A DNA stretch of 33,960 nucleotides from Bacteroidales bacterium (GTDB taxonomy: Bacteria > Bacteroidota > Bacteroidia > Bacteroidales > JAADGE01). The notes beneath the pieces were generated by a model. That model saw only the letters and a program-made list of their open reading frames with translations. It made no database searches and had not been told where the DNA came from. A program made the translations under genes and the position numbers. Of this stretch, positions 2,565 through 33,960 are shown piece after piece; the first letter of the stretch is position 1, and each line of letters starts with the position of its first letter. The stretch is taken from contig JAOZLS010000008.1 in the NCBI GenBank assembly GCA_029934705.1, positions 1 through 33,960 on the forward strand. The letters are read 5' to 3'.

Positions 2565-5003
2565 TTATTGGATTATTATTTTCTCTGTAAAAATGTTGTT
2601 TATTGTTTTTATTGTTATAAAATATATTCCTTTAGGCTCTTTTGATAAATCTATTGTTGATTGGCTATTGCTTATTAATAACTGTTCAATAGATTTTCCT
2701 GTTATGTCAGTTATTTTGACGTTACTTTGTCCTCCTTTGTCGGACGAAAGCAAGTCAAAATTTATAGTAAAAATTCCGTTTGATGGATTTGGGAAAATTG
2801 AAACTTCAGAATTAATATTATTAACAGATAAAGAAACGTCAGAATTGTTTGTTACGCTTTGGTCTGTAATATTTTCAAGTGCAATTTCACAAGTTGATTG
2901 TATATTACCATCTGTGTAGCTTAAAGTTACGTTTTGATCAGTATAAATAATATTTTCAACAGTTAATACTATTATATTATTATTGCCAGCTTTTAACTCA
3001 ATATTTGTAATATTAAGGTTATTCTCTTCAACATTAATTTCAAAATCAGCAGGAGCAGACTGTCCGTTCAAGTCCATTTCAGAATCAAAAGTAGCCTCTA
3101 TAGTTAAACCATTAGCAAGAACAGTAGCGTTAGAAAAAGTTGGAGCAGCAACAGAGTTTAAAGTAATTGTATTAATAGAAGGAGTTCCGTCAGTAATTGT
3201 AAAATCGCCATAATTAGAAGTGTAGCAGTCTTTAGTAACAGCATATTCATAAGAACCATCAACTAGGTTAAAAGTTGCTTCACCGTTTTCGTCAGTAATA
3301 TCGCTATATTTTGTAGTACCTACAAGTACTGTTGCTCCTTGTATTGGGGCTTCTTCTTCGTCAATAATAGTAATTGTAATTGAGTTAGTAACAGCAGCTT
3401 CGCCCAAGTACACAAATAAAATTCTGCCATCGTAGTTTTCGTATATTTGTTGAATTCCAACAAGTAGCACAACTTGATTTTGGTTGTTTACATAGCAAGC
3501 TAAACCTCCGGCTAAATCTTTGTCGTTTCCGTTTCCATAAACTACACCAGGGTATGCTTCGGCATCAATAGGGATTGTTCTGCCAGTTGCAGTTTGTGTA
3601 TTTAAATCATATTCAATAAGTTGTACTGCAACGGCTGCTGCTCCCATTTCAAAAAACCACATTTTAGGATTTTCAGGGTCTGAGTATATATCAATAGCAG
3701 TACTTGAAATATAATCTGGACCTACAAATTGATTTCCAGTATATTCGCCTTCTCCATCAAATTCTTGATAAACATTACCGTAGTTGTTTCCCCAAAAGGT
3801 GCTTGTGTTGTTATTATGTGCAAGTGAGCTAACTGTTACTTCTGTAGTAAAAGTATTTACTAATGTTTCGTTTGCAAGGTCTAATTGCGATATATTAGAA
3901 ACACTTTCAGTTCCGTCCCAATTTCCAGTATAAAAATATTGTCCATCATAAGCTAAGTCATCACCAAAGAAATCATCAATAGTAAAAGCGTCGCCAACAG
4001 GTGTACCAGTCATTGTATATTTAGCAAATTCACTAGTTGCCCATTTTCCTACATATATATGATTACCATCGGTTTCGGGGTATGCACAATGGTATGTTTG
4101 TCCACCAAAACTTGAATCAAAGTAGCCTAATAAATTTCCAATAGGACTTTGGTCAACAACACAATTAGTAGTCATTGTATTATTTTCAGTAGATGCATCT
4201 CCTGCAATTGTAACAGTAGCCGTCATTTCATAAGTACCTTCGGCAGGTAATGTCCAAACAGGAAACTCTATAGTCATTTCGCCTCCAACAGGAATATTTG
4301 CACCAGTTGTAATAGTTTGATTGTAGTCAGTACCATCAATTATTAGGTTTACATCATAAGAGCTAGCTTCTACTAAGCCGTAGTTTTGAACTTTTACTTT
4401 GGGCGTTGTTTCTGTGCCGTAAGCAAGAATAGGCTGAATTTCGTTAATTCCTAAGTCTGTATCAGATGTAAAAACATGTACATCGTCAATACAAACTCCC
4501 ATACCACCATCGTAAGAACCTTCAAAAGCAAGGTATATTTCGCTTGATGCAGGAAGGTTGAAAGTTGCTTCAGTCCAATCGTCTGCACCGTCGGGATAAG
4601 TTTCTAGTTGTATCCAACTTCCTGTAAATCCTTCTTTATAATAAACTGTTAATAAATCAATGTCTCCTGCTCCAAAATAAGTATGTGAGGCATACCAAAA
4701 GTTAAGAGTTCCGCCACTTGATAAATCCAAAGCTGGTGTAACAAGTTTAGTAACTGATGGGTTTGGGAAACCACGAAAAATTGCATTCATAGTGCCAGAG
4801 TGTGCTGTTTCTGGGTATGCTCCTCCATTTGCTCCACCAGTTTGGTAAGCCCAGTTGTCGTTGTCGCCAGCACCGTAAACGTTTGACCATCCTGCAGGAA
4901 GAGTTCCGTCTTCAAAGCCTTCGCTAAGTATGTCTGTTTTTTGAGCATATCCTAGGCTTGTTAGTAATACTAATGATAGAAATAGTGTGAATAAGTGTTT
5001 CAT
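2565..5003 (-). CDS. T9SS-sorted adhesin-like protein (choice-of-anchor J, CARDB-like, propeller-like, SwmB-like)
   Basis: This 812-residue protein has a signal peptide (1-20, ending GYAQ). About 27-180 is a choice-of-anchor J/cleaved-adhesin domain (EGFEDGTLPAGW ... CIDDVHVF), a jelly-roll fold found in gingipain haemagglutinin regions and many T9SS cargo. Then come a CARDB-like Ig domain (about 183-285), a propeller-like stretch (290-540), a carboxypeptidase-regulatory-like domain (IQGATVLV; about 548-620), a SwmB-like domain (625-720) and a type A sorting domain (about 735-812; FPNPSNGIF, ITDITGK, GIYFI). No catalytic motif is seen, so binding or adhesion is the likely role. It is the last gene of the minus-strand operon, 34 nt after its upstream neighbour. 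Its sorting domain contains an in-frame palindromic element (2714-2760). Confidence 0.88.
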   Translation of the reverse strand: MKHLFTLFLSLVLLTSLGYAQKTDILSEGFEDGTLPAGWSNVYGAGDNDNWAYQTGGANGGAYPETAHSGTMNAIFRGFPNPSVTKLVTPALDLSSGGTLNFWYASHTYFGAGDIDLLTVYYKEGFTGSWIQLETYPDGADDWTEATFNLPASSEIYLAFEGSYDGGMGVCIDDVHVFTSDTDLGINEIQPILAYGTETTPKVKVQNYGLVEASSYDVNLIIDGTDYNQTITTGANIPVGGEMTIEFPVWTLPAEGTYEMTATVTIAGDASTENNTMTTNCVVDQSPIGNLLGYFDSSFGGQTYHCAYPETDGNHIYVGKWATSEFAKYTMTGTPVGDAFTIDDFFGDDLAYDGQYFYTGNWDGTESVSNISQLDLANETLVNTFTTEVTVSSLAHNNNTSTFWGNNYGNVYQEFDGEGEYTGNQFVGPDYISSTAIDIYSDPENPKMWFFEMGAAAVAVQLIEYDLNTQTATGRTIPIDAEAYPGVVYGNGNDKDLAGGLACYVNNQNQVVLLVGIQQIYENYDGRILFVYLGEAAVTNSITITIIDEEEAPIQGATVLVGTTKYSDITDENGEATFNLVDGSYEYAVTKDCYTSNYGDFTITDGTPSINTITLNSVAAPTFSNATVLANGLTIEATFDSEMDLNGQSAPADFEINVEENNLNITNIELKAGNNNIIVLTVENIIYTDQNVTLSYTDGNIQSTCEIALENITDQSVTNNSDVSLSVNNINSEVSIFPNPSNGIFTINFDLLSSDKGGQSNVKITDITGKSIEQLLISNSQSTIDLSKEPKGIYFITIKTINNIFTEKIIIQ
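2714..2760. repeat. 47-bp palindromic element inside a sorting-domain coding sequence
   Basis: TTTTGAC (2714-2720) pairs with GTCAAAA (2754-2760). Inside, CTTTGTCC faces GGACGAAAG around a short loop. In the protein it encodes the loop around SSDKGGQSN, between the NGIF strand and the ITDITGK strand, which is longer than the same loop in the plus-strand sorting domains of this window. Confidence 0.75.
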
Positions 5004-5037
5004 AATTTATACATTTAGTTATTTATTTATTTATTTA

Positions 5038-7812
5038 TTATTGAATTATTATTTTTTGAGTGTAAATTTCTGCTCCTGTTTTAATATTAATAAAATATAT
5101 TCCTTTAGGTTGGTTACTTAAATCAATTATGGATTGTGAATTTTTAATTATGAGTTGCTTAATAGTTTTTCCTGTTATATCTATGATTGAAACGCTGCAA
5201 GGTCTTGCAGACGCTTGCAGGTTTTTAAACTCGAGATTAAAAATTCCGTTTGATGGGTTTGGGAAAATTGAAATTTTATTTGAATTATTTTCAATTTCCG
5301 GCAATTTGTTTGGAACTCCAATTGGGTATGGTATTGCAAAAGCTGTTAATTCTGCTCCGCCTTCAAAAACATCAATTAATGTTGAATTTCCTGTTTTGGT
5401 ATTTACTTCTCGTAGTTCTCCTCTACTTTCGTTAAAATTAAAGGCTGCTATAAATAATTTATCTTGATTTTTATCATATTCTAAATCTTGCGAATAAATT
5501 GCATCATAACCGAGATATCCTATTTGTGTTGCTGTTCCTGTTTCGGGATTAATTGTGTAAAGATTAAAATTTGTACCCTCTACAGCATATATAGTACCAT
5601 CGTTTGAACAAGCAAGCATAGTAAAATATAAGTTTGGAATTTCATGAATTATTGTCCATTCTCCGGTTATAATATCCAAAGTATAGAGATAACTAACTTC
5701 ATAAACCTCGTTGTCGTAATTTACAGCATACATTGTTTGATTATTATCATTATAAGCTAAGCCAGTATAAAACCATGAGTTACTAATGAAAGTTCTTTCT
5801 CCGGTAATTGTGTCTATTGTTACGAAATCTCCTTGACCAGTAGTTGCATACCATTTATCTTCTGCCCAAGTTGAAGAAGTAATCCAATTATCAATTGATT
5901 GTTCGGCAATTTGATATAAGTTTTGGGGTTGCATCAAATCAAATGTAACTATACCGGGCTGATGTGGGGAGTTATAAGGAAGTCCGAGATATGCGTAAAC
6001 TTGATAGTCAAAATTTACTACATTTAATTCTGTAATAATTACATCGTTTTCCAGCACTTCATCGTTTGGTACATTTATACTTACAGTAACGCTATAACTT
6101 CCTTCAATTGCAGTCCATTCAAAATCTTCAATAGTAATTGATTGTCCTACTTCAAGATTATTTACTGTATATATGTCTGTAAAATCTCCTATTTGTAATG
6201 TAACATCAAATGATTCTGTAATGTTTTCTACGCCAGTATTTGTAACTGTAACAGTTGGAGTTAAAACTGTTTCGGGTTTACAGAATTTTAATATTTGAAA
6301 ATTGTATAGACCAACATCTTTCGACAGTATTTGAGTTTGGTCTTCGTAAGCTCCCATATCAATTCTGTTACCATATATTCTTGGATTTTGTGCTAAATCT
6401 AATTCCGGTATATTTAATCCGGTAGTGTCTATAACTCCTTTGTTAATACATTCCGAAGTATTTTGCAGAGTCCAGTCAGCATTTATGGCATCGTGTTCGT
6501 ATCCGGTTTCTGTTGTTGGGCTTATAAATTGAGGTATTTCATCAATGTTAAATTCATAAGTACCATCATAACTTCCAATTAATAAATAGAAATCATCAAA
6601 ACCGCCTTCAATATCATTGTTGTAAAAACTGGGGTCTGATTGCAAACCATTATCTACTAAAACTATTTGACTACCATCATAATTTGGAGCTTCATTATTG
6701 TAAATAATATTATTATAAAATTCGGGACTTGAATCTATACAATATAATGCCCCTGCAACTTGTGTAGCATAATTATTTGCAATATGATTATTTGTAACAA
6801 TACAATTATTAGAAGTTTCGAAATAAATTCCACCTCCTTGTTTACCTGTGTTATTGCAAATCAAGTTGTTTGATATATTTACATCATCACAAAACCATAC
6901 ATATATTGCACCGCCGTCATTGTCAGAATGATTGTTTACAATGATATTATTAAAAATTTTTGTTCCGTTTCCATGTGTATAAATTGCACCATAGTGGGTT
7001 GTTTCATTATTGTAAATAATATTATTTTCTATTAAGGTTTCACTGGCATATTCAATATTAATTGCAGCTCCAGAATAACCTGAGTATCCATAATTATTAC
7101 TATTGTTTGCCAAATAATTTCCTCTGATAATAGGGTCAATACCGCTTCTTATAAATATAGTTCCGTTCCAATTATTTTCTACAATATTGTTTTCAAAAAC
7201 TGGATAATCATAATCTCCATTTATTCCGTCAAAAATAATAGGAGACACATTGTCGTAAAATTTATTATTAATAATTTTCATTTCGGAATCAACACATATC
7301 AGTGAACTGCCGTTAATTTCCATTTGTCCCCATTCTTCGGGTATTCTGTTATGTCTGAAACAAGAGTTTAAAATTTCAATAAATTGAAATTCTCTTACTC
7401 TAACAGCTCCTTTATAAGGGTATTCTCCATCGGTAACAGAATATTCAAAAATACAATAATGAAGTTTAGTAGAATCGTTTTCTGTACTTGTATTTTCTTG
7501 AGTAAAATTAATAGTTCCCCAACCGGTTTCATGGTTTAGTGCCGTAAATTTTATAGAATCATTTTCTTGCCCTATGGCAAGAATTTGACCGAGTACTAGT
7601 ATATCGTAGTTATCTTGAAATTCTACAACAACACCAGAGTTAATTGTTAAATTTATTCCTGCTTCGAGTGTTACGTCTCCTGTAATTTTTACAGTATCTG
7701 TACTCCATACTGTATTGTTGGAAATACTTCCGCTTACTTCTACACTTGTTTTTTGAGCAAATAAAAAATTGCTTACTAAAAATAATACTAATAATAGATT
7801 TAATTTTTTCAT
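5038..7812 (-). CDS. T9SS-sorted parallel beta-helix protein with choice-of-anchor Q, CARDB-like and propeller-like domains
   Basis: This 924-residue protein has a signal peptide (1-19, ending LFAQ). A right-handed parallel beta-helix of N-rich coils (NNIIYNNE, NNLICNNTG, GGAIYVW) spans about 60-450, of the kind seen in polysaccharide lyases and adhesins. It is closed by a choice-of-anchor Q segment (CINKG ... NPRIYGNRIDMGAYE, about 455-492). Then come a CARDB-like Ig domain (DVGLYNFQIL; 500-605), a propeller-like region (605-845, ending LTAFAIPYP) and a type A sorting domain (about 857-924). No lyase active site can be assigned, so substrate and activity are unknown. It is the third gene of the operon, 59 nt after the 7872-11795 gene. 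The CARDB and propeller half resembles that of the genes at 16266 and 27603, while the N-terminal half is unrelated to theirs. Confidence 0.87.
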   Translation of the reverse strand: MKKLNLLLVLFLVSNFLFAQKTSVEVSGSISNNTVWSTDTVKITGDVTLEAGINLTINSGVVVEFQDNYDILVLGQILAIGQENDSIKFTALNHETGWGTINFTQENTSTENDSTKLHYCIFEYSVTDGEYPYKGAVRVREFQFIEILNSCFRHNRIPEEWGQMEINGSSLICVDSEMKIINNKFYDNVSPIIFDGINGDYDYPVFENNIVENNWNGTIFIRSGIDPIIRGNYLANNSNNYGYSGYSGAAINIEYASETLIENNIIYNNETTHYGAIYTHGNGTKIFNNIIVNNHSDNDGGAIYVWFCDDVNISNNLICNNTGKQGGGIYFETSNNCIVTNNHIANNYATQVAGALYCIDSSPEFYNNIIYNNEAPNYDGSQIVLVDNGLQSDPSFYNNDIEGGFDDFYLLIGSYDGTYEFNIDEIPQFISPTTETGYEHDAINADWTLQNTSECINKGVIDTTGLNIPELDLAQNPRIYGNRIDMGAYEDQTQILSKDVGLYNFQILKFCKPETVLTPTVTVTNTGVENITESFDVTLQIGDFTDIYTVNNLEVGQSITIEDFEWTAIEGSYSVTVSINVPNDEVLENDVIITELNVVNFDYQVYAYLGLPYNSPHQPGIVTFDLMQPQNLYQIAEQSIDNWITSSTWAEDKWYATTGQGDFVTIDTITGERTFISNSWFYTGLAYNDNNQTMYAVNYDNEVYEVSYLYTLDIITGEWTIIHEIPNLYFTMLACSNDGTIYAVEGTNFNLYTINPETGTATQIGYLGYDAIYSQDLEYDKNQDKLFIAAFNFNESRGELREVNTKTGNSTLIDVFEGGAELTAFAIPYPIGVPNKLPEIENNSNKISIFPNPSNGIFNLEFKNLQASARPCSVSIIDITGKTIKQLIIKNSQSIIDLSNQPKGIYFINIKTGAEIYTQKIIIQ
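5165..5276. repeat. 112-bp block identical to 7999-8110, with palindromic core
   Basis: This stretch of the sorting-domain coding sequence is identical base for base, as read by eye, to 7999-8110 in the neighbouring gene. Its core (5195-5210) is CTGCAAG-GT-CTTGCAG, followed by a second CTTGCAG at 5214-5220. It encodes the loop NLQASARPCS. Confidence 0.8.
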
Positions 7813-7830
7813 TTGTTTATTTGTTTTAGC

Positions 7831-7857
7831 CAGGGTTTTACTTCGAGCGAAACCCTG
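7831..7857. repeat. Intergenic palindrome between two T9SS cargo genes
   Basis: CAGGGTTT (7831-7838) pairs perfectly with AAACCCTG (7850-7857) around an 11-nt loop. It fills much of the 59-nt gap between genes. No U-tract follows on the minus strand, so a terminator is unlikely. It could be an RNA-processing or stabilising hairpin, or a dispersed repeat. Confidence 0.65.
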
Positions 7858-7871
7858 ACAATAAATTTAAT

Positions 7872-10800
7872 TTATTGAATAATTATTTTTTGAGTGTAAA
7901 TTTTTGCTCCTGTTTTAATATTAATAAAATATATTCCTTTTTGGGAGTTCGACAAATCAATTGATAACTGATTATTAATAACTGATAATTGTTTTATTGT
8001 TTTTCCTGTTATATCTATGATTGAAACGCTGCAAGGTCTTGCAGACGCTTGCAGGTTTTTAAACTCGAGATTAAAAATTCCGTTTGATGGGTTTGGGAAA
8101 ATTGAAATTTCATTATTTTCAATACTTTTAATGCTTACAACTTGTTGAAATTCATAAGCACCAATTTCTATTATTGAATTATTGATACGTGTATTTCCCG
8201 ACAGGTCAAATTCTGGAATTGAGTATCCTGCCATGTTGGATAAACCTGCATCAATACAAGGTGAATGTTCTTGTAAACTGTAATTCGACAAACTTGCTAC
8301 AAAATTTGGGTTTATATTTAAATTATCAGTGTATTCTCCGTTAAATTGAGAGTCGTCGCCTAAAATAATTTGCGACAATCCGCCTTTTATGTCATTATTC
8401 AGGAAAGTGATATTATCTGTTAGTCCGTCTAATCTAAGCTGGTCGCCCCATTCCTGTGCATCAGCAAGATTATCCCAAAAAATATTATTTACAAAAGTAG
8501 GTTCGTTTGTCATTGTTATTTGGTCAGTTTCGGTGCAATAAAATCCTCCGGCATTTGGGCAGTAATTATTTGCAATTGTGTTATTTACAAATTTAGATTG
8601 AGTGTTTACGGCAAAAATAGCACCTCCAATTCCGTAGCTTGAATTCGCACCTTGTAATGCTTGATTTCCAATTAAAAGGTTATTAATAATTTCAGGACTT
8701 GAGTTTATCATATAAATCGCACCGCCTTTTCCTCCTTGATTATCAAGCATATATGTATTTGAAATTGCAGTATTATTAGTAAAGATGCAGTTTTCAACCT
8801 TACCGCCTTTATATTCGGTATCAAAATAAGCCAAAGCACCACCGGCTCCGTAAGTAAAGTTTCTGTCGAAAGTGCAATTAGCAAATATTGGTGAAGCATT
8901 AATCATTATTGCTGTTGCACCTGCTTGGTCGTTAAAATCATCTAAAAATAGATTATTTACTTTTGAATATGAGAAATTAACATAAGCAAAATGGCTATCA
9001 GTATCAGGTTCTAAAAAAGCAATATGTTTCCAACCTCCTGTTGTGTATTGAATCATTGAATAAAATGCTGTTGTATCGGCAGTTGTAATTGTAATATTAT
9101 TATCGGCAGTTCCAATTGCTTGTATGTTTCCTTCAACTATAAAACCATTATTACCGTAAAAATAGAGTTCGGTTCCAGCTTCAATAATAAGAGTTTTACC
9201 TGCTGAAACTGTAATGTCTGAATTTACGTAATAAACTCCTTGTGAGATTGTTCCATTCATTTCGCCACCAATAATATTTACATTTTGGGTTTCTTGAAAT
9301 TCAAAGCAACCAATATCAATTGTTCCGTTAGCAATTCTTGGATTTCCGTTTACATCAAATTCTGGTAAGTTTAAGTTTGAAACATTGGTTGTTCCCATAT
9401 TTATCATTGGCGAAAAATGTTGTAAATTTGAAGCAATTTCATTTTCATATTCAAAAGCAGGATAAAAAGAGTTGCAATTTTCAAAATCTCCTGTAAATGT
9501 CCAACCAGCATAAGAATCTCCATCTAAACCATCTAAACTATAGGTGTTTGAGCAGTTATAGAAATTTGGAACAGAGCCGTCGTTTGCGATAGAAATATCT
9601 CCAAAAAAACTATCGCCTTTATTATACCAAAAAAGTGAATTGTAAATATTTGGGCTTGAATTTACTATGTATAAGGCATTTCCTTGGTGTTCGGAAGTAT
9701 TGAAAATAAGACTATTATTAGACATATTTGTATTATAGTTTCCGTTTATATAAATTCCGCCTCCGGCATCACTCGCAATATTGTTGAAAATTAAATTTGA
9801 GTTTACATTAATACTTCCTCCCGAAAGTGAAATTCCGCCTCCTTTATAGTTTGTAGAATTATGATGTATTTTGTTACTTGCTACAAGTCCTGTTCCGCCG
9901 TCAATGGCAATTCCGCCACCTGCTCCGTTAAATTTTGGAGGGTTTTTGGCTTTGTTTGATAAGTTATTATTAGAGGTAAAATTTGAATTTTTATTATATT
10001 CCGGTAAATTATATTTTTGATTAGTGATTTTTGAATTATTAATTTCTAATATAGGAATTATTTTTTTCTTTGCTTCGGAATAATTTGTGCTATTATGATG
10101 AATTTCATTATATGCAAAAAAGATGTTGTTACTACCAATAAGAGAAACTCCGCCACCTTCATAATATGCTTGATTATCGGCAATTTCATTATTTGTAATT
10201 TCAGCATTACAATTTGAAGCATAAATTCCACCACCGGAACTATAATTGTCTGTTGCAATGTTGTTTGTAATAATATTATTTTGAATTAATGCAGCATTTA
10301 AAGAATAAAGATATAATGCTCCACCATATTCAATTGTTTCATTTTCATTAAATAAATTTTCGTTAATATTTATTGCAGAATTGTTTGCATAAATTGCTCC
10401 TCCCTTATTTCCCGCATAATTATTTTGAAAAGACGAGTTTAAGATTTCAATGTCAGAATTATTTGCATATATGGCACCACCGTTGTTATCGGCTTTATTA
10501 TTTTCAAAAATAGAATTCGAAATTGTTATATTATTCCAATTTTCGATATTAAAAACAGCACCGTTGCTGTTAGGTTCAGTTTCGCTTTCAGCCCAAGCGT
10601 TTTGGAATTCGCAAAAGTTAAAAACCGATGCAGAGTTACTTGCATCAAGTGTGTTAAAATCAATTCCATACCACCAATCAGCCGCATATCCGGTAGAGAA
10701 AATGATGTGATTATCAGTTGTTCCGCTTGCATTTATGCAACCATTAACCGTGAGTTTGGATTTTTCAGAAAACAGAATTTCTGTTCCAGCTTCTATATTA

Positions 10801-16265: not shown

Positions 16266-18248
16266 ATGAAAAGTATAATTGTAAAATGTACACTACTGTT
16301 AATTATTACATTTATGTTTGTTTTCACAACAGATGCTCAAGATTTTAGACAAATAGAATTACGCAAAGAAAGTGGTTCTGTAAATGGTAATAGCTTTTCA
16401 GAAGTTATAAAATTAAACACAAAATCTACCTACTTAAACGAAACGTTTAAAAATTTAGATAATTGGACAATTACTGATGGTGGAGAAACTTCCGACACTT
16501 GGCATATTGCAACTCCTGAACCTTCGTCTTTAGATGGAACTCCTTATGCTATTGTTGTAAGCGACGATGCAGGGCAACTTGATATGGATGAAATAATGGA
16601 ACTTACAGTAGGTATTGATGTTACAGATGCAACATCATTATTCTTTTCGTTTGATCATTTTATGTGGGATTGGGATACAAACCCAACTCCTACACAAGGT
16701 CTAGTTCAAGTTTGGGACGGTAATGAATGGGTAACTGTTTATACTGCCGACAACCAAGATATTGGATCTTGGGATGTTCCAGATCATCAAGATATTGAAA
16801 TTACGGCATATAAAAATGATGAGTTAAAAGTAAGGTTTCATTATACTGCAAATTGGGATTTTTGGTGGGCTGTTGACAATTGTATTATTTATTCTAAAAG
16901 CGATCATGACTTAGGCATGTTAAGTAAATCTTTAGAATGGCTCTTTGTTGATGATTCAAAAATACCTACTGCTGACGTGTATAATTTTGGTATAATAAAT
17001 GAAAACACATATAGTGTGAATTATATTATTTATAATGATGAAGATGAAGTTATTTATGACGAAACAGTTAATGTTGAAAATATGATTGCACCCGATGCAA
17101 CTGCCACTATTTCTTTTCCTGCATGGACAGGCACAATAGCCGGAACATATAAGGATACCGTTATTGTTACGGTTTTTGATGACGGAAATTCATTCAACAA
17201 TAAAATAGGAGGCGAAATTAAAGTTATTGGCGATGTTGAATATGATGCAGGAACTATATATGGATGGAATGGAGACCCAACTGCATATACAACTAAAATA
17301 TCATTAGAAACAGGTGAACTTAACAATATGCAAGCAACAGGTGATTTGATGTATTGGACTTGTGCTTCATATATCAACGGCAGAGTTTATGGTGTTAATT
17401 TTAATAATATTCAATATACAAATGCAAAACTTTACTACCTAAATAATGATGGAACACCTTACGAGATTGGAAGTATTGAAGGATCATACATGATAAGTGC
17501 TATGGCACATGATATTACAACAGGAAAAACATATATTACAAATTTTAGTAATATAGGTGTATTTGAACTATTTGAGCTTGATATAGAAAATTTAACAACA
17601 ACTTATATTGGAGCTTGGGGGTCAACTGCAAATCCCGGAGTTGGTAATGTATTTGCACTCGCTTGTGATAATAACGGAGCTCTTTACGGTCTTGCAGGAA
17701 TTATAAATCAATCTACTTATGTTGTAGATGATGCTAAACTTATAACTTTTGATAAAAATACCGCTGAAATAACTGAAGTAGGTGAAATTGATGTTGATAT
17801 TGTTTTTGGAAACCACGATTTAAGTTTTGATAGACAAACAAATATATTATATGGTACTTTGCTCGAACAAGCTGATGGTGCTGGAGTATATTCTTTTAAT
17901 ACAGAAAATGGCGAAGCTACACTAATTCACGACCTTAATTTGGAATACCCAATTACTGCCTGTGCTATTATTCCTTCAAGCCTTGTTAATATTAATCAAG
18001 AAGAAAATACAATTATTAATATTTATCCAAATCCTTCGAATGGAGTTTTTAATATAGACTTTAAAACGTTTACAGAAGTCTTAAATGTTTCAATTACTGA
18101 TATTACTGGAAAAATTATATATCAATTAGCAAATGCTAATTGTAAATCGCAAATTCAAATTGATTTATCAAATCAAAATAAGGGAATTTATTTTATTCGA
18201 CTGTTCAATAACAGTAGCAGTTATAATTATAAAATAAATATTAATTAA
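16266..18248 (+). CDS. T9SS-sorted adhesin-like protein (choice-of-anchor J, CARDB-like, propeller-like)
   Basis: The ATG at 16266 gives 660 residues with a clean signal peptide (1-24, ending TDAQ); an in-frame TTG 45 nt upstream falls inside the inverted repeat and is rejected. Domains in order are choice-of-anchor J/adhesin (about 45-215; NETFKNLDNWTI ... WWAVDNCIIY), CARDB-like (218-325; DLGMLSKSLEW ... IAGTYKDTVIVTV), propeller-like (330-580; TGELNNM, GRVYGVNF, FGNHDLSFDRQTNILYGTL) and type A sorting domain (590-660; IYPNPSNGVF, ITDITGK, GIYFIRL). The layout repeats that of the genes at 2565 and 27603, which points to paralogues. No catalytic motif is seen; a surface-binding role is likely. 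Confidence 0.86.
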   Translation: MKSIIVKCTLLLIITFMFVFTTDAQDFRQIELRKESGSVNGNSFSEVIKLNTKSTYLNETFKNLDNWTITDGGETSDTWHIATPEPSSLDGTPYAIVVSDDAGQLDMDEIMELTVGIDVTDATSLFFSFDHFMWDWDTNPTPTQGLVQVWDGNEWVTVYTADNQDIGSWDVPDHQDIEITAYKNDELKVRFHYTANWDFWWAVDNCIIYSKSDHDLGMLSKSLEWLFVDDSKIPTADVYNFGIINENTYSVNYIIYNDEDEVIYDETVNVENMIAPDATATISFPAWTGTIAGTYKDTVIVTVFDDGNSFNNKIGGEIKVIGDVEYDAGTIYGWNGDPTAYTTKISLETGELNNMQATGDLMYWTCASYINGRVYGVNFNNIQYTNAKLYYLNNDGTPYEIGSIEGSYMISAMAHDITTGKTYITNFSNIGVFELFELDIENLTTTYIGAWGSTANPGVGNVFALACDNNGALYGLAGIINQSTYVVDDAKLITFDKNTAEITEVGEIDVDIVFGNHDLSFDRQTNILYGTLLEQADGAGVYSFNTENGEATLIHDLNLEYPITACAIIPSSLVNINQEENTIINIYPNPSNGVFNIDFKTFTEVLNVSITDITGKIIYQLANANCKSQIQIDLSNQNKGIYFIRLFNNSSSYNYKININ

Positions 18249-18319: not shown

Positions 18320-18449
18320 AAAAATATAACAAACCTTTATTGTTCTTTTATATGAATTTCTTTTTAAATTTCTTTTCATAATAAGATATTAAATTAAGAA
18401 CGTATTGGTTTGTTTAATTAGTTTACTTTTTACTACTAAATTTGTAATA

Positions 18450-19319
18450 ATGAAAATTTTGAGGCATATAATAATTTTAGGCATATTAATCTTTTCTTTT
18501 CAACTAATGGCACAGAATGTAAGTATTAATATAGATGGCTCAGCTCCAGATGCTTCAGCAATACTTGATGTAAAAAGTACCACAAAGGGGTTTGCTCCTC
18601 CAAGAATGACCCAGTATGAAATGCTCAATATTGCAGAGCCAGCTGCAGGGCTAATTGTTTTTAATACGACTAATAAATGTTTATATTATTATGATAATAC
18701 GACTTGGGCTGATTTACAATTTTGCGATTGCGGACATGTAGTAGATGTTGAAGGTAACTTTTATAGAGCAGTAAAAGTTGGCGATCAATGTTGGATGGCA
18801 GAAAATCTTAAAACAACAAAATATTCCGACGGAACTTCAATACTCGGAGTTTATGATAACGGTGCAACTTACCTAGAAAATTACGGAAAAGTTTATACAT
18901 GGGCAGCCATTATGGGAGGCTCTGCTAGTAGTAATCTAAACCCTAGCGGAGTACAAGGAGTTTGCCCTGTTGGTTGGCATGTGCCTAGTGAAGATGAGTG
19001 GCAAGAGTTGAAAACAGAACTAAACGATGCAACTAACGATGGCAGGATGCTAAAAAAAGACGATGCTTTATGGGGTGGAGACTCGCAAGCAGGATACAAC
19101 GATGGAAACCAAAGTGGGTTTGATGCACTTCCTGGGGGATATAGATCAACTTCAACATCAACTTTTTATAATATAACAGTAACTGCATTGTTTTGGTCTT
19201 CAACTTCTTCTGGTTCAAGCGATGCAAATAATTGCGGAATAGCTCGTAATTCAGCAACTATGGGCATAACTCAAACAACAAAAATAAATGCAGTTTCAGT
19301 TAGATGTGTGCGTGATTAA
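18450..19319 (+). CDS. FISUMP-domain secreted protein 1
   Basis: The ATG at 18450 gives 289 residues; an in-frame TTG at 18405 lies upstream of a -7-like TAAATTTG (18437-18444) and is rejected. Signal peptide 1-22 (SFQLMAQ). Residues about 23-95 are the module SAILDVKSTTKGFAPPRMT ... GLIVFNTTNKCLYYYD, shared with the tail-fibre protein at 1-2206. The rest is a Fibrobacter succinogenes major paralogous domain: VDVEGNFYRAVKVGDQCWM, AENLKT, GVCPVGWHVPSEDEW, FDALPGGYR, FWSSTSSG, VRCVRD. The domain is common in secreted proteins, but its molecular function is unknown. No T9SS tail follows; the domain ends the protein. It is first of three tandem paralogues. Confidence 0.87.
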   Translation: MKILRHIIILGILIFSFQLMAQNVSINIDGSAPDASAILDVKSTTKGFAPPRMTQYEMLNIAEPAAGLIVFNTTNKCLYYYDNTTWADLQFCDCGHVVDVEGNFYRAVKVGDQCWMAENLKTTKYSDGTSILGVYDNGATYLENYGKVYTWAAIMGGSASSNLNPSGVQGVCPVGWHVPSEDEWQELKTELNDATNDGRMLKKDDALWGGDSQAGYNDGNQSGFDALPGGYRSTSTSTFYNITVTALFWSSTSSGSSDANNCGIARNSATMGITQTTKINAVSVRCVRD

Positions 19320-19373
19320 AAAAGACCTCAAAGTGTATGTAAGCTCTTATTGAACATCATAAAATAACAAAAA

Positions 19374-20225
19374 ATGAAATATTCAAAATATATATTCTTA
19401 TTTTTGGTAATATTAATGTTGCAATTGCAAGCAATTTCGCAAGGGGTTGGTATTAGCGATAATGCTAGTAACCCACATTCTTCAGCAATACTTCATGTGC
19501 AAGGCACAAGCGGTGGTTTTTTACCTCCAAGAATGAATGATGCCGAAATGAATGCAATAATAAATCCAGTAAATGGCTTAATAATTTATAATACTACAGC
19601 ACACTGTACATATCACTATAACGGAACAAATTGGTTGGTTTTGGAAACTCACGAATGTATTACCCTTGTTGATATTGAAGATAATAGCTATAAAACAATT
19701 AAAATTGGAAGTCAAATATGGATGGCGGAAAACTTAAAAACATCCCATTACGCAGATGGTTCAGCGATAACAAATGTACAAGACAACGGAGTTTATGGAA
19801 ATGTTTACGATTGGAATGCAGTAATGAATGGAGTAGGAAGTAGTACCACAAATCCTAGCGGAGTACAAGGGGTTTGCCCTAATGGATGGCATCTGCCTAG
19901 CCAAGCAGAATGGCAAGAACTTGAAACAACACTTGTAGCTACAAACGCAGGTAGGAAATTGAAAAAATATGATAATTTATGGACACAAAATTCAACTCAC
20001 CCAAATGCTGGCTATAATGATGCAAATGCAAGCGGATTTAATGCTTTACCTGGTGGATACTGGAGTGGAGCATTCGCAAATCAAAACGGACACGCATATT
20101 TCTGGACAGCAACAGAGAATGGAACTAATGCCGAAAATTTTAGACAGGCTTTTGATATAGCTACATTAATAAGCGAACAAGGAGCTAAAACTACATATTT
20201 TTCAGTAAGATGTGTTTGTGATTAA
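19374..20225 (+). CDS. FISUMP-domain secreted protein 2
   Basis: This 283-residue paralogue lies 54 nt downstream of copy 1. It has a signal peptide (ending QAISQ), the SAILHVQGTSGGFLPPRMN module and the FISUMP domain (GSQIWMAENLKT, GVCPNGWHLPSQAEW, FNALPGGYW, FWTATENG). Two cysteine positions differ from its neighbours: the QCW cysteine is replaced (QIW), and an extra cysteine appears in the terminal VRCVCD. If the family forms disulphides, this copy pairs differently. There is no sorting domain. Confidence 0.86.
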   Translation: MKYSKYIFLFLVILMLQLQAISQGVGISDNASNPHSSAILHVQGTSGGFLPPRMNDAEMNAIINPVNGLIIYNTTAHCTYHYNGTNWLVLETHECITLVDIEDNSYKTIKIGSQIWMAENLKTSHYADGSAITNVQDNGVYGNVYDWNAVMNGVGSSTTNPSGVQGVCPNGWHLPSQAEWQELETTLVATNAGRKLKKYDNLWTQNSTHPNAGYNDANASGFNALPGGYWSGAFANQNGHAYFWTATENGTNAENFRQAFDIATLISEQGAKTTYFSVRCVCD

Positions 20226-20239
20226 TTAAACATAATAAA

Positions 20240-20272
20240 ACTTTATGTGTACTAACACCATGAAGTGTTTTT
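20240..20272 (+). terminator. Terminator-like hairpin between FISUMP genes 2 and 3
   Basis: ACTTTATGTG (20240-20249) pairs with CACCATGAAGT (20256-20266) with one G-U pair and one bulged base, 6-nt loop TACTAA, then GTTTTT. It could lower expression of the third gene relative to the first two. The weak stem and short T-run leave doubt. Confidence 0.45.
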
Positions 20273-20284
20273 AAACAAAATAAG

Positions 20285-21235
20285 ATGAAATATTTTATAA
20301 TAATAATTTTAATAACAATTTCAATAAATATAAATGCACAAGTATTAATTGATGCAGATGGAACTGCAACATTAGAAAGTTCAGCAATACTTGATGTACA
20401 AAGTAATGATAAAGGTTTTTTACCTCCACAGCTTTCTTGGCCAGAAATGCAAGCCATTGTAACTCCAGCCGAGGGATTAATTGTGTATAATACAACTGCA
20501 AATTGTATGTATGTTTACAACGGTACTCGATGGTATGTAATTGAATATTGCAATTGTGGTAATGTTACAGATGTAGATGGTAATTATTATGAAACAGTAC
20601 AAATAGGGACACAATGTTGGATGGCTGAAAACTTAAAAACAACCAACTATGCAAATGGTTCTAGTATTTCAGGAGTTTACGACGATGGAGCAACATATTT
20701 TGAAAATTACGGAAAAGTTTATACATGGGCAGCTGTTATGGGAGGCTCTGCTAGTAGTAATCTAAATCCGAGCGGAGTGCAAGGAGTTTGCCCAGATGGC
20801 TGGCACATGCCAAGCGATGCCGAATTTTTAGAACTCGAAAATAGAATTTGTGAAGATTTAGGACATCCCAATTGTAATACGATTTTTAACGGAACTAATA
20901 CTGGTTGGTTGGGACATATTGAATCACAAGGCGGATCAGAAGCTAGAGCTATGAAAGAATACAATGCATTATGGAATGGGAACTCAACAAATGTGAATGC
21001 TGGTTATAATAATAGTACAGACCCAAGTGGTTTTAATGCCCTTCCAGGAGGTAGCCGACATTCTTCGGGTACTTATGGTAGTGTAGGTTCTACTACTTAT
21101 TTTTGGACAACAACCCAAAATATTTCAAATACGTTGAATGCGTATTTTCGAGGTTTATATTATAATGGAAGTAAGATAAATAGATTTGACATGCAAAAAA
21201 CTTATGGATTATCAGTAAGATGTATTAGAGATTAA
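20285..21235 (+). CDS. FISUMP-domain secreted protein 3
   Basis: This 316-residue paralogue has a signal peptide (1-18, ending NINAQ), the SAILDVQSNDKGFLPPQLS module and the FISUMP domain (GTQCWMAENLKT, GVCPDGWHMPSDAEF, FNALPGGSR, FWTTTQN, VRCIRD). Relative to copies 1 and 2 it carries an insert of about 30 residues after the GWHMPS segment, with two more cysteines (ICEDLGHPNCNT). A 92-bp stretch (20702-20793) differs from copy 1 (18876-18967) at only five positions, so these two are closest and may have exchanged sequence. No sorting domain. The function of the family is not known. Confidence 0.87.
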   Translation: MKYFIIIILITISININAQVLIDADGTATLESSAILDVQSNDKGFLPPQLSWPEMQAIVTPAEGLIVYNTTANCMYVYNGTRWYVIEYCNCGNVTDVDGNYYETVQIGTQCWMAENLKTTNYANGSSISGVYDDGATYFENYGKVYTWAAVMGGSASSNLNPSGVQGVCPDGWHMPSDAEFLELENRICEDLGHPNCNTIFNGTNTGWLGHIESQGGSEARAMKEYNALWNGNSTNVNAGYNNSTDPSGFNALPGGSRHSSGTYGSVGSTTYFWTTTQNISNTLNAYFRGLYYNGSKINRFDMQKTYGLSVRCIRD

Positions 21236-33300: not shown

Positions 33301-33960
33301 TTTTGGGAATTTTTGTCAACATCCAGACTATATAGGAACAGCTTATATTAATGTAACACCTTATAACTCATGTGGTGTAGGCGTAGAATCCGAAGCTTTT
33401 GAAATTAATATAAATGAATCGTTGAATGTTACTATTTCGTTGTATAATGATATAGAGATTGATGATGGTTCTATTGAACTAACAGGAGGGCTTCCTCTGG
33501 GTGGAATTTATTCGGGAAACGGCGTAAACAATGGCTATTTTGATCCTGAGATAGCAGGATTAGGTAACCATGTAATAACTTACACATATTCTGCAGGAAA
33601 TTCTTGCAACGATTTTGCTCAAACTTCTATTAATGTTGTAGAAGATTCTAAAGTTTCTGATGTTTCAAATGAAACAGTAATAATATATCCAAATCCAACA
33701 ACTGGTAGCTTCTATGTGAAAATTGACTCAAAAGAAAGAGGTCTTAAATTGAATATTATTAATTCTCTTGGAGTTTTGGTTCTTCAAAAGGACATAAAGT
33801 TAAATAAATCTCGAAAAACCAACGTTGATTTAAGTAGTTTTGCAAAAGGAATAATAACTCCAAGTCATACAACACACATAAACTACTGCCACACTCCAAC
33901 AAGATTTCTTTGGGATAGCTTCCATTCATACTTAAAAAACCAAAAATTAAATCCAATAAC
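30395..33960 (+). CDS. BNR/sialidase-repeat protein with FN3, GEVED and T9SS sorting domain (runs off right edge)
   Basis: The frame is open from the ATG at 30395 to the edge (1188 codons). It has a signal peptide (ending LFAQ) and a pro-region, then a sialidase-like propeller with five Asp-box motifs between about residues 175 and 445 (SEDNGITW, SNNGGISY, SIDGGQSF, SEDGGTNW, SYDAGETW). FN3-like (about 502-584), GEVED domain (635-774; GVWIDINHDGDFDDANE ... GEVEDYIINI), PKD/Ig-like domains and a sorting domain from about 1097 (IIYPNPTTGSF, NVDLSSFAKG) follow. The arginine triad of true sialidases cannot be placed, so hydrolase activity is unproven. After AKG at about 33850 the expected GIY-strand is replaced by unrelated sequence (ITPSHTTHINYCHTPTRF), which stays open to the edge. 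The gene may be interrupted there. Confidence 0.83.
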   Translation, partial: MKKIILTLIVISLFATFQLFAQKWDKKNITKNGNVDLLIDSKAYWQRLADAGLVPYNPIIKIPNAIYKTSKINAKSVKTEDSPDVPVDEPGTSFQSENSIFVSPIDNSYVMNSNNSTTVGLDIYGANFFYSDNMGAEWNGTEQGVGGDNSGDPATAIGLDGRMYVGFIHNNRGQGVSYSEDNGITWTSVVAGDPPPVGSNNLLDKNHLWIDNSPTSPYVGNVYDAWTPFGNDNNRNIELVYSNNGGISYSTPINISSGVNTGGLNQGVNLQTGPNGEVYAVWSIYDLSNADESAIGMAKSIDGGQSFAPAYRIIDNIRGIRKTGVLKNMRVNSFPVMAVDISEGVFNGNIYVVWSNIGTPNVNTGTNVSIYMIKSEDGGTNWSLPIRVNQGVFQEGKESYQPWITCDPVTGTLSVVFYDDRNVSSQQVETWVANSYDAGETWEDFRISDVAFTPSGIPNMAANYMGDYLGISARGGKVYPVWTDNREGTFMSYVSPFETNSRARPTNLQIVLLHETGSVELNWDFDNAKSFQYFSIYRDDVYLGTSTDTYFSDLLPIYGKYEYKIYAVFEDGESFPAKNNITYGNYEISATNELHESLLINQSSVRTISVTNNGTIPVTYNVISEIISAKNITNYCTASGGGEYEYISGIQFGDINNIGTGSNNYTFYSTLSTNVTAGNTYPIGISVGEIDSNDDIGVWIDINHDGDFDDANENVICEVGIGNAGTYNYNLTIPESAVGGETVMRVRLKCNDIDCGNPCGETPYGEVEDYIININSWLETNSITETLYPGENSQILVHFFSQDLTSGNYSANINLLSYETDENLYTIPITLTVNNSIELQSLPTAENSLLCSGNETSLYANARGGSGTYTYSWSSSPAGFTSSNANPIVSPSENMIYHVTVSDGLASVTEDVSLVMASTPEQPAQPIGLGFLCKNSSNVLYQITEVSDAQYYQWSVFPTEAGSFTGENIFGNFCQHPDYIGTAYINVTPYNSCGVGVESEAFEININESLNVTISLYNDIEIDDGSIELTGGLPLGGIYSGNGVNNGYFDPEIAGLGNHVITYTYSAGNSCNDFAQTSINVVEDSKVSDVSNETVIIYPNPTTGSFYVKIDSKERGLKLNIINSLGVLVLQKDIKLNKSRKTNVDLSSFAKGIITPSHTTHINYCHTPTRFLWDSFHSYLKNQKLNPI
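33851..33960. other. Sequence of unknown origin replacing the end of a sorting domain
   Basis: From about 33851 the conserved last strands of the sorting domain stop and sequence with no likeness to it begins, on either strand and in any frame. It could be the edge of an inserted mobile element, a rearrangement or an assembly junction. No terminal repeat or transposase can be confirmed in the 110 bases available. Confidence 0.4.

Follow-up and report, generated by a model that had tools for sequence, protein, structure and literature searches.

The DNA palindromes that lie within the coding sequences of three T9SS cargo genes of a Bacteroidales bacterium are probably REP-type elements of a Bacteroidales RAYT system (RAYTs being REP-associated tyrosine transposases of the HUH/Y1 superfamily), copies of which persist in frame in protein loops. 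The three genes are located in the window, by which we mean the whole 33,960-nucleotide stretch of DNA that was analysed. The palindromes themselves had been described in a first-pass annotation of this DNA, and the link to RAYT genes is the main addition made here.

Palindromes in the sorting domains of the window

The three palindrome-bearing window proteins all have C-terminal matches to PF18962/TIGR04183 in a profile search (Table 1). The first-pass annotation located the palindromes correctly in three minus-strand T9SS cargo genes: TTTTGAC (2714-2720) is mirrored by GTCAAAA (2754-2760) in one gene, and CTGCAAG-GT-CTTGCAG is present at 5195-5210 and 8029-8044 in the other two. With up to two mismatches, the CTGCAAG palindrome occurs twice in the window, against 0.04 occurrences expected. 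While the places are thus as described, the unit is longer than was recognized, namely 33 nt for type A and 39 nt for type B, and the type-B palindrome extends to 2714-2760 once the flanking A/T bases are counted. All three palindromes are in frame, between predicted strands β1 (residues 9-13) and β2 (residues 24-30). In a structure model of the 5044-5268 domain (mean pLDDT 88), the element corresponds to residues 16-26 and occupies the turn between strands 1 and 2 plus the start of strand 2.

When the DNA was recoded synonymously with the protein held fixed, complete 14/14 pairing arose at P 0.0005-0.0015 for the two type-A window copies and in 0 of 2000 recodings for the type-B copy; overall, the synonymous-shuffle P was at most 0.0025 in 15 of the 19 copies tested. 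The relative at 18057-18089, in the plus-strand domain at 18021, retains 12/14 pairs (P 0.60), and its palindrome can no longer be demonstrated on its own. The loop had also been described as longer than in the plus-strand sorting domains. This stands, by about 3-7 residues, for the comparison with the element-free domains of the window (NP-to-GK spacing of 29-30 with the element versus 23-25 without it), but not for the plus strand as such, since the 18021 domain carries the eroded relative.

Table 1. Genes, sorting domains, and hairpin units of the window
Feature	Position	Strand	Details
Cargo gene, 812 aa	2565..5003	-	Choice-of-anchor J, CarboxypepD_reg, sorting domain
Cargo gene, 924 aa	5038..7812	-	Right-handed beta helix, sorting domain
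Cargo gene, 1307 aa	7872..11795	-	CHB_HEX_C_1, beta helix, sorting domain
T9SS type A sorting domain (PF18962), carrier of type-B hairpin	2571..2798	-	Profile match
T9SS type A sorting domain, carrier of type-A hairpin	5044..5268	-	Profile match and structure model
T9SS type A sorting domain, carrier of type-A hairpin	7878..8102	-	Profile match
Type-B hairpin GACTTGCTTTCGTCCGACAAAGGAGGACAAAGTAACGTC	2718..2756	-	39 nt, loop 9, peptide DLLSSDKGGQSNV
Type-A hairpin AACCTGCAAGCGTCTGCAAGACCTTGCAGCGTT	5191..5223	-	33 nt, peptide NLQASARPCSV
Type-A hairpin, identical to 5191-5223	8025..8057	-	33 nt, peptide NLQASARPCSV
Eroded type-E relative GACTTTAAAACGTTTACAGAAGTCTTAAATGTT	18057..18089	+	Same sorting-domain loop, peptide DFKTFTEVLNV

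Two further features of the window were observed in passing. Three tandem paralogous genes occupy 18405-21235, and their C-terminal parts seem to resemble the Fibrobacter major paralogous domain. In the final sorting domain of the plus strand (33683-33958), unrelated sequence (ITPSHTTHINYCHTPTRFLWDSFHSYLKNQ) abruptly follows SSFAKGI shortly before the contig ends, perhaps owing to a break caused by assembly or by an insertion.

One hairpin design with variable arms

The two window types were initially regarded as different palindromic elements, whereas they in fact share one hairpin design and differ in their arms. The design follows the grammar [AG]AC-N7-CGTC[CT]-N3-[AG]GAC-N7-CGT[CT], with 14 bp and two bulged bases, and the unit is a 33-nt hairpin whose loop is mostly 3 nt, or a longer one where the loop has 9-10 nt. 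From the foot upwards, the fold consists of three stems of 3 bp, 7 bp (with free sequence), and 4 bp, separated by single bulged bases and closed by the small loop; one bulge is a 3'-side base between stems 1 and 2 and the other a 5'-side base between stems 2 and 3. Both window units adopt this fold identically, as does every arm class tested. A search with the pattern RACNNNNNNNCGTCYNNNRGACNNNNNNNCGTY, in which the arms are unconstrained, returned 56 copies across the genome with at most one mismatch and none for the reversed control, and exact matches were found in 21 of 148 related genomes, none of which matched the control. The dispersed palindrome family that the first-pass annotation had postulated, to be sought in the genome and its relatives, is therefore real. 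Going by their labels, the named genomes with a type-D-like pattern are a SulCav MAG labelled Draconibacterium orientale, a groundwater Bacteroidia MAG, a Chlorobi MAG, a Bacteroidetes MAG (Dive96), and one MAG labelled Thiomargarita.

Across 25 aligned distinct types, AC, GTC, GAC, and CGT are the invariant positions. Of the cells, 99.1% are paired, 9 of the 14 pairs change on both sides, and both the number of double-change cells (88 versus 25.6) and the score (0.656 versus 0.174) exceed those of shuffled alignments. The arms thus vary while pairing is kept by two-sided changes, which indicates that the hairpin itself is preserved. The own-genome collection had a minimum arm pairing imposed, whereas the copies from relatives were chosen without any arm rule; in these copies alone, the seven arm positions are paired in 94% of cases, compared to 56% (maximum 65%) when the arms are re-dealt. 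A scan of the sorting domains for hairpins with a free loop discriminated too little, given the AT-rich DNA and the counting of G-U pairs: 111 of 125 domains scored at least 12/14, and only the fixed hairpin geometry is therefore informative.

That all tested classes fold alike, that compensatory change retains the pairing, and that the copies in cargo genes lie near the 3' ends would also be expected of an RNA or DNA hairpin selected for a benefit, such as mRNA stability, terminator-like activity, or a recombination signal. We consider this improbable, because most sorting domains (about 120 of 142 examined) have no recognizable element, eroded copies exist, and the hairpin is also found within a RAYT gene, upstream of that gene, and in RHS, PP2C, and CHAT proteins.

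Placement of copies in the genome

Sorting domains make up 0.7% of the genome but contain 14 of the 56 copies, where 0.4 would be expected; the binomial figure for this enrichment assumes independent copies, and the domains are related. In the 1.27 Mb of genome stretches read, most other copies cross no ORF of at least 70 codons, i.e. they are noncoding. Head-to-head (inverted) pairs are present on contigs C1, C82, C274, C333, C370, C449, and C454. For types D and E, the sorting-domain copies match noncoding ones exactly or almost exactly; for type A, the draft genome contains no noncoding copy. In-frame copies were also found in proteins that, judged by sequence rather than by profile, are of the PP2C, CHAT/TPR, and RHS kinds, and the site in the RHS protein is occupied in two genomes by different arms in the same frame. 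The CHAT/TPR-like protein of one relative (G017, L224) contains NLSASCRPESV together with a second peptide, DLTGFENLSGL, apparently encoded by another palindrome. The IcmF-type mutase of G008/G014 was considered as another in-frame case and set aside, since the orthologue in the present genome is similar in length and the G014 arms do not pair.

The type-B core recurs in RHS-like relics on contig C317, and a variant of it both upstream of and inside the RAYT gene on C1. On C317 (L049:1-60 and 1400-1460), the type-B hairpin lies in short RHS-like relics (PGGAIYKNLLSSDKGGQSSVFSSQ) that flank a PIN-domain toxin-antitoxin-like gene pair, and an open RHS-like protein in G015 (L223) has another arm type at the place matching these relics. 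With two copies 1.4 kb apart enclosing a gene pair, AAC...GTT ends, and bulged hairpins, the arrangement is reminiscent of integron attC sites. It is nevertheless extremely improbable that the family represents attC or another site-specific recombination signal: the ends are mostly GAC...GTC, the bulges are on opposite arms, no tandem cassette array is present in the contigs read, and the C317 copies belong to RHS-like relics.

RAYT genes beside the hairpins

Three RAYT genes of the same genome are accompanied by hairpins of this design. The gene on C1, a 289-codon frame with an NHFH motif, has a head-to-head hairpin pair upstream, a second pair in frame inside the ORF, and a partial copy downstream, beside an N gap; its forward units are of type B, the type found at 2714-2760 in the window. 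The C454 gene has one type-E pair on each side, and the C213 gene has AACCAAGAAG-type hairpins on at least one side. The arm types of two RAYT genes, B for C1 and E for C454, are accordingly also those of sorting-domain loops. When the three RAYT proteins of this genome are aligned, the in-frame pair of C1 appears as additional residues that separate the HUH region from the tyrosine region, and only in this gene does the net gain come nearer to the size of the element.

The RAYT proteins contain HUH (NHFH) and Y..NP motifs and match the NF047646 REP_Tyr_transpos profile at 40.6, 42.5, and 55.6 bits (E 2e-10 to 5e-15), below the curated cut-off of 80 bits; by sequence, they appear to be divergent relatives of the NF047646 family. 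No PDB relative of the C454 protein was found by sequence. RAYT loci of seven related genomes (G066, G008, G015, G116, G067, G082, and G087) have hairpins of the same design nearby, which in G082 carry type-A arms, while many other related RAYT loci have no hairpin of this grammar. Within the draft genome, no cognate RAYT was found for type A or for type D, the most abundant type. Other candidates for cognate enzymes were discarded: the RAYT-like genes of C17 are associated with different palindromes (GCACC...GGTGC), and the RAYT gene of C476 has no such palindrome nearby. The C17 locus (L190:2300-3900) consists of two near-identical IS200-like genes in tandem, each surrounded by its different palindrome family (GCACCGTTGGTGC).

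The sorting-domain loop

With relaxed matching, 22 of the 142 examined sorting domains carry an element, in seven arm classes. The first-pass annotation proposed testing whether copies cluster at this loop and in one reading frame; they do so in 22/22 domains, with constant orientation as well. In three other genomes of the family, the same loop is occupied in the same frame by other arms, giving DFKTSAGLLNV (in another genus), NLTASARPVSV, and the decayed NLPASARLISV; two of these sorting domains, in further genomes, are decayed. No match to the NLQASARPCS domain was found among PLSDB plasmids.

Many copies are tandemly clustered on C148, C45, and C265, the two type-A copies of the window have flanks in common, and the ITDITGK strand is common to domains with and without elements. 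The NLQASARPCS-like residues could accordingly be viewed as a conserved segment of a duplicated sorting-domain subfamily, the DNA symmetry being incidental. This very improbable explanation is already contradicted by the synonymous-shuffle test, by the presence of the same hairpins outside coding sequence and next to RAYT genes, and by conservation: class-A copies share 92% identity in the element but only 63% in the next 54 nt, which is also the value between classes. Element and domain hence have different histories.

The 812-aa window protein has a 50%-identical full-length paralogue on C148, which carries type A rather than type B at the same loop position. This paralogue is the best comparison available, as no orthologues of the window cargo genes with a truly empty loop were found and G001, from the same genus, has no match to these genes; the proposed check for empty sites thus did not yield the expected counterparts. 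Across the genome, NP-to-GK spacing is 26-30 in most element-bearing domains and 23-26 in most others. The element comprises 11-13 codons but the net gain in sorting domains is only about 1-6 residues, which implies that the element stands in for the native turn. The first-pass annotation's idea of a protein-tolerated Bacteroidota family with this loop as a landing site thus holds as regards the family and the favored loop (14 of 56 copies, one frame), but not as regards clean in-frame insertion of the kind known from Rickettsia palindromic elements. Because the net length change is small, the insertion event itself is not visible in the domains.

The main rival is repeated independent landing, in which a RAYT would insert different hairpins at the loop, the DNA of the GTTTCAATAAC/ITDITGK strand would be a preferred target, and out-of-frame events would be selected away. 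It would account for the variety of arms at a single loop (at least seven classes in this genome, others in three related genomes), for the match of domain types D and E to noncoding copies, and for the fact that flank similarity does not follow arm class. We nonetheless regard it as unlikely. The type-A unit contains no stop codon in any of its six frames, so stops alone cannot have fixed phase and orientation, yet these never vary in the 22 domains; the lengths point to replacement rather than a gain of 11 codons; and the RHS site is equally constant in phase with changing arms. These observations favor few original events followed by in-place turnover of the arms and exchange between domains, which we consider the most likely course and at least as plausible as repeated landing.

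Other repeats were noticed in the same domains. The type-A element of three C45 domains (at 1827, 3361, and 5169; L051) encloses a further repeat (GCTGAGCGTAGTCGAAG, peptide AERSRS), and several domains have peptides of this kind (AERSRS, EHSRS) at a later loop as well (INIVYAERSRSKTET...). In element-free domains belonging to the same subgroup (e.g. C465:7481, C67:5001, and C216:56), the loop reads NCELQITNIE or NNELQITNIE, apparently encoded by an AT-rich repeat. The sorting-domain turn may therefore accept several repeat families.

Discussion

The hairpins share several properties with the REP/BIME elements and RAYT (TnpA-REP) genes of REPtrons, in that they are short, imperfect, dispersed, and often in inverted pairs, and in that each hairpin family adjoins its own RAYT gene (PMC2817692, PMC6006769). 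In RAYT subclass 2.4, found in Cyanobacteria and Bacteroidetes, in-frame REP copies have been described inside the RAYT gene between the HUH and Tyr motifs (PMC6006769), where the C1 gene has its in-frame pair. However, the residues tabulated for subclasses 2.4 and 2.6 are WQ, whereas most RAYTs of the present set read GxLFx. Furthermore, the alignment of 25 types has no conserved 5' GT[AG]G guide at the foot of the hairpin as in canonical REPs, but instead the frame [AG]AC...CGTC[CT]...[AG]GAC...CGT[CT] with its two bulged bases.

A second related group is the CGTC superfamily (Di Nocera 2013), which has been reported in Bacteroidetes and includes Neisseria dRS3 and Rickettsia RPE-4 and RPE-6 (PMC3733652), so that the parallel with Rickettsia palindromic elements drawn in the first-pass annotation was apt. 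CGTC-tagged REPs have an unpaired CGTC tag, a stem of 8-9 bp starting with AT, a loop of 4-5, and a CCA tail, and the 2013 survey reported no associated dedicated transposase (PMC3733652). The present hairpins resemble them in the CGTC motif, the short stems, the mostly head-to-head pairs, and the intragenic in-frame copies, but differ from them in tag, stem, loop, and tail: they have CGT[CT] at the 3' end with GT[CT] paired, a loop of mostly 3 or 9-10, and adjacent RAYT genes. As with Rickettsia palindromic elements, the palindromes are tolerated and read as protein in unrelated genes, except that in the present case a single loop of one secreted-protein tag is strongly over-represented and its native turn replaced. 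We found no earlier description of this hairpin/RAYT variant in the open-licence papers that the literature search covered.

In the mechanism we propose, each RAYT would recognize the hairpins of its own family in single-stranded form and move or copy them. One or a few copies would have taken the β1-β2 turn of a sorting domain, displacing the native turn, and would be tolerated there because the turn accepts almost any sequence. The domains would later have duplicated, while the arms turned over in place through REP recombination or hairpin-templated repair and spread among the approximately 150 homologous sorting domains. Such turnover and exchange would account for the unvarying orientation and codon phase. 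The cell need not benefit, and the secretion-tag function is presumably kept. More tentatively, it is possible, albeit doubtful, that a Bacteroidota REP/RAYT lineage swapped the GTAG guide for a CGTC-framed double-bulge hairpin, so that it supplies the transposase said to be missing for CGTC-type palindromes, and uses the T9SS sorting-domain turn as a lasting reservoir, with arms being exchanged there in situ at a constant protein frame.

The occurrence of CGTC-framed palindromes beside RAYT genes with matching arms, in several genomes, makes the enzyme that moves protein-tolerated palindromes testable on defined gene-hairpin pairs. It also means that peptides such as NLQASARPCS or SSDKGGQSN in these proteins should be read as DNA-level repeats and not as protein motifs, and that mobile DNA shapes a loop of a secretion tag used by many exported proteins of the Bacteroidota.
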